From: Polaribacter sp.
GTDB lineage: Bacteria > Bacteroidota > Bacteroidia > Flavobacteriales > Flavobacteriaceae
Direction: 5' to 3'
NCBI GenBank assembly: GCA_018608545.1
Contig: JABAZI010000075.1
Location: 1-33,843, forward strand
DNA length: 33,843 bases
Numbering within the stretch: position 1 is the stretch's first letter; every line of letters starts with the position of its first letter. Both the position numbers and the translations under genes were made by a program. Under the pieces are notes generated by a model, which saw only the letters and a program-made list of their open reading frames with translations, did no database searches and was not told the DNA's origin. Positions 9,894 through 22,376 of this stretch are shown here, piece by piece.

Positions 9894-10403
9894 TTATAAA
9901 GAAAGCTTTACTCCAAAAAAACCGCTAATTAAAAACTCCTTTTTACTATTGTATAGTGTCTTTAGGTCTTTTCTTTGAGTTATTTGTTGTGAGCCGATAA
10001 GTTGTATCCAGTTGTTAATTGTGTAACTCAATTCACCGGTCATACTATAACTTAAGAAAGACCTATTCTTTCTGTAAATATTTCCAATATCAATAAATGC
10101 AGTAGCTCCAATGTTACGATAAATTGTATTCACATGATACGATCCTCCAATTGCATAACGTTGAAAATTTCCCCCTGTTAAATCTGCATATTCAATTGAG
10201 GGGTATACTGCAATGTAATTGTTTTTTAACTTGATAACAGGGATTTCTACTTTCGTTAGTATATTTAATGTTATTGCGCTATTATTTTTACCATCTCCTA
10301 TAAATAATAGTCTGGCATCTTGCTGTAAAGAAAGTTCTATATTTTGACTGTAGTTAAAAAAAGGGGATAGGATACAACTACAGATTAATAATATTTTTTT
10401 CAT
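9894..10403 (-). CDS. Small secreted beta-barrel-like protein, unknown role
   Basis: 169 residues with a cleavable signal peptide (MKKILLICSCILSPFFNYSQ, cleavage expected after NYSQ). The mature part alternates hydrophobic and polar residues in short strands (ITLNILTKVEIPVIKLKNNYIAVYPSIEY, RYAIGGSYHV, TGELSYTI, FLISGFFGVKLSL) and ends in a strand with a terminal Leu, which fits a small outer-membrane barrel of about 8 strands. No enzyme motif is visible. It is a solitary leftward gene, convergent with the glycosyltransferase gene (52-nt gap). I cannot name a family. Confidence 0.7.
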   Translation of the reverse strand: MKKILLICSCILSPFFNYSQNIELSLQQDARLLFIGDGKNNSAITLNILTKVEIPVIKLKNNYIAVYPSIEYADLTGGNFQRYAIGGSYHVNTIYRNIGATAFIDIGNIYRKNRSFLSYSMTGELSYTINNWIQLIGSQQITQRKDLKTLYNSKKEFLISGFFGVKLSL

Positions 10404-19480: not shown

Positions 19481-20107
19481 ATGATTTGGCTTAAGGATAC
19501 AATTGAATTTCCTTCCTATGAATCTACCTCCAACGACGGCATCATTGCTTTAGGAGGAGATTTGAGTGAAGAACGGTTAATTCACGCATATAATAACGGA
19601 ATTTTTCCCTGGTATTCTGAGGGAGATCCAATTGTTTGGTATTGTCCACACAAAAGAATGGTCTTATTCCCAGAGGCTATAAAAGTATCAAAATCCATGC
19701 AAAAGATCATGAACAACAACAACTATACAATCACTGAAAACAAGGCTTTTAGTGAGGTGATTTACAATTGCAAAACAATCGACAGAAAAGATGGTTTTGG
19801 AACTTGGATTACGGGAGAAATGGAGCAGGCTTATATTAATTTACACCAAAAAGGACTCGCAAAATCAATAGAAATTTGGCTTGGAAACGAATTGGTTGGC
19901 GGTTTATATGGTTTAGAAATAAATAATATATTCTGTGGAGAAAGTATGTTTAGCAAAGTTTCTAATACTTCAAAATTAGCATTCATACATCTGGCTAAGA
20001 ATAAAGAATATACATTAATAGATTGCCAAATATACAATCAACACTTGGAGCGTTTGGGAGCAAAGGAAATAGATAGAAGTACTTTTTTACAAATCTTAAA
20101 AAGTTAA
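19481..20107 (+). CDS. aat: Leucyl/phenylalanyl-tRNA--protein transferase
   Basis: Adds Leu or Phe from aminoacyl-tRNA to proteins with N-terminal Lys or Arg, marking them for ClpS/ClpAP in the bacterial N-degron pathway. 208 residues, slightly shorter than the E. coli 234. Family sequence is clear throughout: GIIALGGDLSEERLIHAYNNGIFPWYSEGDPIVWYCPHKRMVLFP, FGTWITGEMEQAYINLHQKGLAKSIEIWLGNELVGGLYGLEINNIFCGESMFSKVSNTSKLAFIHL and LIDCQIYNQHLERLGAKEIDRSTFL. Monocistronic; no clpS or clpA nearby. Confidence 0.96.
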   Translation: MIWLKDTIEFPSYESTSNDGIIALGGDLSEERLIHAYNNGIFPWYSEGDPIVWYCPHKRMVLFPEAIKVSKSMQKIMNNNNYTITENKAFSEVIYNCKTIDRKDGFGTWITGEMEQAYINLHQKGLAKSIEIWLGNELVGGLYGLEINNIFCGESMFSKVSNTSKLAFIHLAKNKEYTLIDCQIYNQHLERLGAKEIDRSTFLQILKS

Positions 20108-20164
20108 TTTTTGACAGCTATTTTATGGCATGATAGTTGCTTTTTTCTATTTAAAAAAGAGAAT

Positions 20165-20700
20165 ATGAAAAAAAAATCATTTTAATTTTATTTTTTTTCA
20201 CAAGTCTGATTTCTTTTTCACAGGAGAAATTTGGAGCACCTTATTTTACAGCAGCTGCCAACCTTACTTTTGCAGTCAACGAAAACTATACCTTAGACCC
20301 AGATGATGGAGAGTCTCTTTTAATACCTTCTGCAATCTTTCTTAGAATGGGTTTTGGCTATGAGTTTAAAAAAAGAATCGCTTTGAGTCTAAACGGTGGG
20401 TTTGATTATCACTGGAATCGTGCATTGAGTTCATTTCCAACATACAGTAGTGTAAAATATATTATTACCGAAAATCAAGGAGATCAATTTTTTACAGAAT
20501 TTAGTTATGGAAAAATGTGGAGGCCTTCTAGAAGGTTTTCTGACGGGAGCTATTATCGTCTTGGTCTGGGTACTCAAATAAAAGGATTGGGGAGATGGAA
20601 TACTATTATTCGATTAGATTTTCATAGAAAAGGGATTATTGGCTTCGACAAGAACAAAATAGAGAGTGTTTCTCTAGGAATAGAATTTTCTTTCTTTTAA
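20165..20700 (+). CDS. Outer-membrane barrel-like protein, reading frame broken at an A9 tract
   Basis: The track ORF (20347-20700) is only the tail of a longer frame. That frame is open from just after the TAA at 20152 and encodes KKIILILFFFTSLISFSQEKFGAPYF: an obvious signal peptide that runs into APYFTAAANLTFAVNENYTLDPDDGESLL and then the track protein. The only ATG upstream, at 20165, is followed by exactly nine A's and stops after six codons (Met Lys Lys Lys Ser Phe stop). With one more A it would read MKKKIILILFFF in frame and give about 178 residues. The C-terminus SLGIEFSFF ends in an aromatic, as outer-membrane barrels do. So either the gene has lost one A, the assembly miscounted, or slippage restores the frame. 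Confidence 0.72.
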
Positions 20701-22376
20701 AAATCTGAAGCGATCGTAAAACACATCGTTTTATTTGTAGATGGATGTAAAAATTCAATATATTCTGCATGTAAATGCAATCTATTTTCTTTTTTTCCGT
20801 ACAAATCATCTCCAAAAATAGGAGTATTTAACCCATCTTTATGTGCAGCATGGATTCTTAATTGATGGGTTCTTCCTGTAACTGGATAAAAATAAACACG
20901 GCTTTTACCATTTTCTTTTTTAACGAGCTCCCAATTGGTTTCAGTTTTTTTACCATATTTAAAGTCTACGAGTTGTCTGGGTCTGTCCTCTAAATCAACT
21001 CGTAATGGAAGTTTAATAGTTCCTCTATTTTGTGTTAAATATCCGTCTAATACAGCTACATACCTTTTTTTAACGGTTCTGTTAATAAACTGACTTTGTA
21101 AAGTTGCATTTGCTTCTTTCGTTTTGGTAAGTACTAGAATTCCAGAAGTAGACATGTCTAATCGATGAACAATTAATGGGCCAGTAGCTGATGGATATTT
21201 CTTTTTGATTCGAGTATACACAGAGTCGGTAATATTTTTTCCAGGAACAGATAAAAATTCAGCGGGTTTGTTGACAACAATTAAAACAGCATCTTCATAA
21301 ACAATTTCTAAATCTTGTTTTTCTGACAAGTTTTTTAGTAATAAATTAGGATCCATTTGAATGCCTTGTAGCATATGAGTTAAAATAGGCTTACATCTGC
21401 CTTGGCAGGCAGGATAAAAATTCTCATGCCTTCTTATGGCTGAATTTGGTGAAATTCCCCACCAAAATTCTGCCAAACAAATAGGTGTTAAATTAGTTAA
21501 AAAAGCATATTGTAATAATTTAGGAGCCGAACATTCACCAGAACCAGCAGGTGGTTTTATACTAGGATTATTAAAAATGTCCAATAAGTTTTTTTGTTTT
21601 TTGTCTTTATTTAAGAATGCGTATTTGCTAAAAAGTGTTTGTTGTAGGTAATTAGATTTTTCTTTTCGTTGTTTCTTTAAGGATGCAATTTCTTCTTTAT
21701 AAACAGCAATTTTTTCTTCCTCTTTTTTAATTTTTTTCTGGTAATATTCTTGAAGCTCTCTATAATAAAATTGATCATTAAAACTTTCTTGGACTAGCTT
21801 TTTATCAAGGGAACTAATGGCTGAATTAGTTAACGTAGAAAAACTATTTTTCTTTCTAACTTTTCTGTCAAATTTACGGAGGGTTAATTTTTTTCTCTCA
21901 AGAGTTAAATCAGTAGTTATCTCTTTTGATATTTTTTGAATCGATTTCTTCAAGGACACATACGTTATATCTTGCTTTATAGAAGTTAATCGTTTGTTTA
22001 GTTTGTTTATTTCTTTCTCTCCCTTTAGGTAGAAACTGCCATCGGTCCTCATATTAAAAACAGGAGGAACAAATTTTTCAGGCAAACTATTGTCAGCTAG
22101 CTTCCCAGAAAACGCAGCGAGATAGCCAATTTTATTTTCATTATTTTTCACAACTAATACACCAAACATCTTCCCTATTGGTGGGTTTTCAGATTTTTTG
22201 TTTAGTCCAAAATCATGAATGAAATCAGATTGTGTTTTTAAATATTTTTGTAATTCTTTTGCCGCAATTTTAGCCAAATGATGTGGCTCATAATAAAAAG
22301 GAAATGTAAATTTTTCTGGAAGTGGTATTTCTGAAATATCTTCTTTAAAATTTTGGAAATAATTCAATAGGTACAA
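20697..22376 (-). CDS. RluA-family pseudouridine synthase with a 350-residue N-terminal extension
   Basis: 559 residues. The C-terminal 200 form the catalytic domain: LEIVYEDAVLIVVNKPAEFLSVPGK, motif II IVHRLDMSTSGILVLTKTKEA with catalytic Asp407, VKKRYVAVLDGYL, and GRTHQLRIHAAH followed by FGDDLYG. It isomerises uridine in rRNA or tRNA; the target is not predictable. The first 350 residues are not an S4 domain. They contain a charged coiled coil (about 205-250) and a distinctive block PPAGSGECSAPKLLQYAF, ICLAEFWWG, YPACQGRCKPIL with four cysteines (282, 300, 324, 328). The stop codon overlaps that of the convergent barrel gene. It is 8 nt downstream of the Sua5-like gene, so both RNA-modification enzymes are one transcript. 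Confidence 0.92.
   Translation of the reverse strand: MYLLNYFQNFKEDISEIPLPEKFTFPFYYEPHHLAKIAAKELQKYLKTQSDFIHDFGLNKKSENPPIGKMFGVLVVKNNENKIGYLAAFSGKLADNSLPEKFVPPVFNMRTDGSFYLKGEKEINKLNKRLTSIKQDITYVSLKKSIQKISKEITTDLTLERKKLTLRKFDRKVRKKNSFSTLTNSAISSLDKKLVQESFNDQFYYRELQEYYQKKIKKEEEKIAVYKEEIASLKKQRKEKSNYLQQTLFSKYAFLNKDKKQKNLLDIFNNPSIKPPAGSGECSAPKLLQYAFLTNLTPICLAEFWWGISPNSAIRRHENFYPACQGRCKPILTHMLQGIQMDPNLLLKNLSEKQDLEIVYEDAVLIVVNKPAEFLSVPGKNITDSVYTRIKKKYPSATGPLIVHRLDMSTSGILVLTKTKEANATLQSQFINRTVKKRYVAVLDGYLTQNRGTIKLPLRVDLEDRPRQLVDFKYGKKTETNWELVKKENGKSRVYFYPVTGRTHQLRIHAAHKDGLNTPIFGDDLYGKKENRLHLHAEYIEFLHPSTNKTMCFTIASDF

Follow-up and report, generated by a model that had tools for sequence, protein, structure and literature searches.

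The window analysed here, a stretch of 33,843 nucleotides, comes from a 2.3 Mb draft genome that is Polaribacter-like, two relatives from named genomes being Polaribacter species. Between aat and a gene for an RluA-type pseudouridylate synthase lies an open frame for a predicted secreted barrel protein (hereafter the barrel gene), the features of which are collected in Table 1.

The locus and its reading frames

The barrel frame reads KKIILILFFFTSLISFSQEKF...FSFF and is open from 20155 to 20697, bounded by TAA at 20152-20154 upstream and by its own TAA downstream; it carries KKIILILFFFTSLISFSQ followed by 158 further residues. Searches of Pfam, NCBIfam, PHROGs and the PDB returned no sequence match to the protein. 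The protein is probably an outer-membrane barrel, as suggested by a signal peptide (recognized by eye), by hydrophobic stretches in an alternating pattern and by the C-terminal phenylalanine of the closing FSFF.

Table 1. Coordinates of the barrel gene, its start region and its neighbours in the window
Feature	Position	Strand	Remarks
aat, leucyl/phenylalanyl-tRNA protein transferase	19481-20107	+	PF03588; conserved neighbour
Possible remnant of the relatives' GGAATAGTTTTTG-like box, here GATAGTTGC	20132-20140	+	Altered; putative promoter role
ATG	20165-20167	+	Marks the ancestral start, today in a different frame from the barrel; in-frame start in 102 of 103 other readable orthologs
A9 tract	20168-20176	+	Exactly nine, read from the sequence
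TAA closing the ATG frame after six codons	20183-20185	+	Sequence
Barrel-protein reading frame	20170-20700	+	Matched by orthologs in 105 further genomes of the genus
Signal peptide	20170-20223	+
Mature part	to 20697	+
Stop codon of the barrel frame	20698-20700	+
T8 run within the signal-peptide codons	20191-20198	+	Sequence
RluA-type pseudouridylate synthase	20697-22376	-	PF00849; conserved neighbour

No ATG, GTG or TTG occurs in the barrel frame before an ATG at 20347. The ATG at 20165 opens a different frame, which translates as MKKKSF and then stops. Relative to this ATG the barrel lies in the -1 frame, so that one extra A in the tract, or a -1 ribosomal shift, would join the two and yield MKKKIILILFFF. 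An earlier sequence-only reading of this DNA had described most of this arrangement, and we found it as described in regard to the A9 tract, the stop after six codons, the intact signal peptide and barrel frame lacking a start one frame over, the restoration of the frame by ten A's and the T8 run shortly downstream. Its statement that the ATG is the only one did not hold, there being two others a little upstream. The ATG at 20125 is in the barrel frame but meets a stop after two codons, and the ATG at 20130, in the third frame, runs for 12 codons before a stop; neither is usable as a start for the barrel. The 12-codon frame (20130-20168, MIVAFFYLKKRI) ends in a TGA that overlaps the ATG at 20165 as ATGA, probably by chance.

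Translation of the barrel could in principle begin at the internal ATG at 20347 or at a rare codon, either ATC or ATT (20176-20181); both of these codons are starts in translation table 11 and are in frame with the barrel. The product of a rare start would be without the lysines of the signal peptide, and no ortholog needs such a start, whereas initiation at the internal ATG would remove the signal peptide together with some 40 residues of the mature part; we consider either course exceedingly improbable.

Orthologs, constraint and other broken copies

A genus search located the barrel gene in 106 of 166 genomes, the window genome included; the 60 genomes with no match include some that are incomplete. 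Both aat and the RluA-type gene were found on the fetched stretch in seven cases (L003, L004, L010, L011, L023, L032 and L033), indicating that the copies there are true orthologs. Most other ortholog stretches tested showed neither neighbour, which suggests that the gene is also located elsewhere in the genus, and no plasmid or viral relatives were found that would point to mobile carriage.

We read the start regions of the 105 copies in other genomes, 103 of which had a readable 5' end. All but one of these have an in-frame start at the matching place, usually as MKK- and in six instances as GTG or TTG, from which it follows that the ATG at 20165 marks the ancestral start position. The tract behind the start, on the other hand, ranges from 0 to 9 A's across the orthologs; it numbers three and six in the two closest relatives (L032 and L033) and reaches nine, in frame, in two other copies (L034 and L121). 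Across these copies a long A-tract is thus not a conserved feature of the barrel gene.

Apart from its start, the gene in the window gives little sign of decay. Over a 47-copy tree, the window branch ranked 25 of 47, mid-range, in its ratio of changes at codon positions 1 and 2 to those at position 3. Against this, N99I and G173E alter two of 19 near-invariant residues, a state matched by only one of 94 intact copies. Upstream of most orthologs, about 37-40 bases before the start (L012, L013, L017, L024, L025 and others), a GGAATAGTTTTTG box is conserved, which we take to resemble the Bacteroidetes -7 element TAnnTTTG; in the window genome this box is altered. Together, the constraint signal, the changed residues and the altered box suggest a gene that stayed functional through almost its entire history, with any decay only now starting. 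Since the remainder of the gene looks constrained, the lesion at the start would be young, leaky or not real. But for N99I, G173E and the altered box the gene looks functional, and this would also fit an artefact or continuing expression.

Outside the window genome, 98 copies were free of lesions (one of these cut at a contig end) and seven of the 105 were broken, one at the start tract and six elsewhere. The former, in G062 (L040, contig C5, about 159190-159204), has ATG followed by A6 where its sisters L038 and L039 have A7, the rest of the gene being intact; by this comparison it is a second, independent slip of the same kind and in the same place. Among the others, G015 has a stop at codon 19, G125 has two stops, G151 has an internal frameshift, and G070 and G046 hold remnants only. 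The copy in G167 (L141, contig C51) has T4 where a relative has T5, resulting in a frameshift inside the signal peptide. This genome, in which another small secreted gene (contig C20, L191) is without an ATG, GTG or TTG start where one is expected, is possibly affected by consensus errors or by decay. The variety of lesions in the seven copies, along with the 60 genomes without a match, shows that the barrel gene is dispensable, and it looks frequently lost in the genus.

Start-tract slips thus number two in 104 readable copies (the window genome and G062), a frequency compatible with ordinary decay at what would be the softest spot of the gene. As a control family we used a second small secreted protein that likewise matches no family, encoded in the window at 9894-10403 on the minus strand (MKKILLICSCILSPFFNYSQ...) and present, sometimes in multiple copies, in 32 of the 166 genus genomes. 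No A-tract start slip was seen in about 25 copies of this family, a sample too small to differ from the rate in the barrel gene.

The A9 count in the draft genome

The main rival to a null allele is an artefact at this one site, that is, a consensus error or a strain mixture, most cells carrying an in-frame tract that the draft miscounts. The state of the assembly (92 contigs, 90.7% complete), the intact and constrained remainder of the gene and the predominance of intact orthologs would all fit such an error. Against it, ATG followed by A9 occurs at ten sites in the window genome, all of which were read and each of which has exactly nine A's: five of them begin genes in frame, four either are internal or lack an ORF, and the barrel gene is the sole start that is out of frame. 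In 246 kb of the genome, 15 starts with ATG and at least six A's were in frame, with the barrel gene again the only one out of frame, and no other homopolymer joining broken frames was detected. Genome-wide, runs of A10 and A9 numbered 31 and 255, respectively, resembling the counts in finished genomes of the genus such as G034 (58 and 353) and G047 (29 and 268). The lack of further homopolymer breaks and the normal A10 and A9 counts give no sign of a systematic assembly fault, and the two altered near-invariant residues likewise tell against a simple miscount. We consider an error or mixture at the single site rather unlikely.

A ceiling on homopolymer length imposed by the assembler was also considered, given that runs of at least ten were missing from the 246 kb (chance about 0.04), and was rejected on the normal genome-wide numbers of A10 and A9. 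A search for a genome-wide set of out-of-frame A-tract starts left the barrel gene on its own among all ATG-A9 sites and the 30 loci with ATG and at least eight A's that were fetched for reading from 55 listed, some of the other 25 having already been read as A9 sites.

Slippage, switching and the nature of the allele

Homopolymer phase-variable outer-membrane proteins occur in Neisseria and Helicobacter. The barrel gene shares with these genes a homopolymer near the 5' end, a probable outer-membrane product and an observed out-of-frame state, and differs from them in that its tract is short and unconserved and that it is known here from one assembly. A phase-variable (contingency) gene, in which slipping is reversible, the tract is kept for switching and the assembly caught the off state, would be consistent with the ideal position of the tract directly after the ATG, with a probable surface protein as product, with the independent off state in G062 at the same place and with the overrepresentation of 5' poly(A) tracts in bacteria (PMC2831843). 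The tract, however, is not conserved, having three and six A's in the closest relatives, L032 and L033, and 0-9 across the genus, which argues against a maintained switch; no set of similar off tracts exists in the window genome, and other copies were broken by plain stops and internal frameshifts, as in simple decay. On balance we regard this explanation as quite improbable.

The A9 tract is long enough to slip and its target frame is one extra A away, RNA polymerase being known to add A's on runs of nine in bacteria (PMC5009743). In AT-rich insect endosymbionts, slippage at long poly(A) runs corrects 12-50% of transcripts (PMC5009743), slippage on an A11 in tssM of C. rodentium gives 20-25% (PMC4256274), and indels in repeats of 3-8 bases, including an A8, have been bypassed in the laboratory (PMC3812077). 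The barrel gene resembles tssM (PMC4256274) and the endosymbiont genes (PMC5009743) in being a frameshifted gene with a long A-tract in which additional A's in the mRNA could repair the frame. For those genes products or cDNAs were measured, whereas the barrel gene is known here from its sequence; its A9 is also shorter than the A11 of tssM and is sited at the start codon (PMC4256274). Programmed slippage, in which A9 would have evolved as a recoding site holding the protein at a fixed level through slippage of RNA polymerase or the ribosome, is consistent with the slippage-prone tract, with a barrel frame that a single added A or a -1 shift would reach and with no long-term loss of constraint. 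No relative has the out-of-frame A9 arrangement, however, downstream RNA structure was not significant (z -0.88) and two invariant residues were changed, making a programmed site very improbable.

The closest precedent for the whole situation, by analogy, is the pair of 5' poly(A) alleles in inlA of Listeria monocytogenes, of which A6 is off and A7 is on (PMC2831843). In both cases a surface-protein gene has its A-tract close to the 5' end, a single slip leaves a short peptide (8 residues in inlA and 6 in the barrel gene), and off alleles arose independently (PMC2831843). For inlA, A6/A7 variation occurs between strains within a single species and reversion has been measured, whereas the barrel allele is known from one genome and its relatives are other species (PMC2831843).

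Our preferred explanation, held with moderate confidence, is a recent out-of-frame allele, probably leaky, of a dispensable accessory secreted gene of Polaribacter, made by slippage and needing no dedicated switch. Replication slippage in the A-tract after the ATG would have left nine A's, and ordinary translation would then end after six residues. The remainder of the gene is not measurably decayed, so the event would be young. RNA polymerase slipping on A9, or ribosomes slipping by -1 on the AAA codons, would probably supply a minor amount of full-length protein, and published poly(A) slippage rates make some such product likely; by analogy, the allele is probably best called off-but-leaky. 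Among the three options offered by the sequence-only reading, a fresh null allele fits best, an evolved switch is disfavoured by the unconserved tract, and a homopolymer error of the systematic kind is disfavoured by the 246 kb and by the A10 and A9 counts.

As matters stand, this is an ordinary lesion in an accessory gene, ordinary in kind. Among homologs the repeat is out of frame in the window genome and G062 and in frame in 102 copies, these states being spread over different species. That the start tract slips repeatedly and reversibly in nature, with on and off cells in populations at a marine flavobacterial contingency locus that possibly acts against phages or grazers, is in our estimation improbable; if the tract did vary within populations, it would offer a simple model for contingency switching in Polaribacter. 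The allele, if real, would be a clean natural case, from a free-living marine flavobacterium, of a frameshift in a 5' poly(A) tract. In that event it would also serve as a warning that gene callers start the barrel gene wrongly at the internal ATG at 20347 or drop it.
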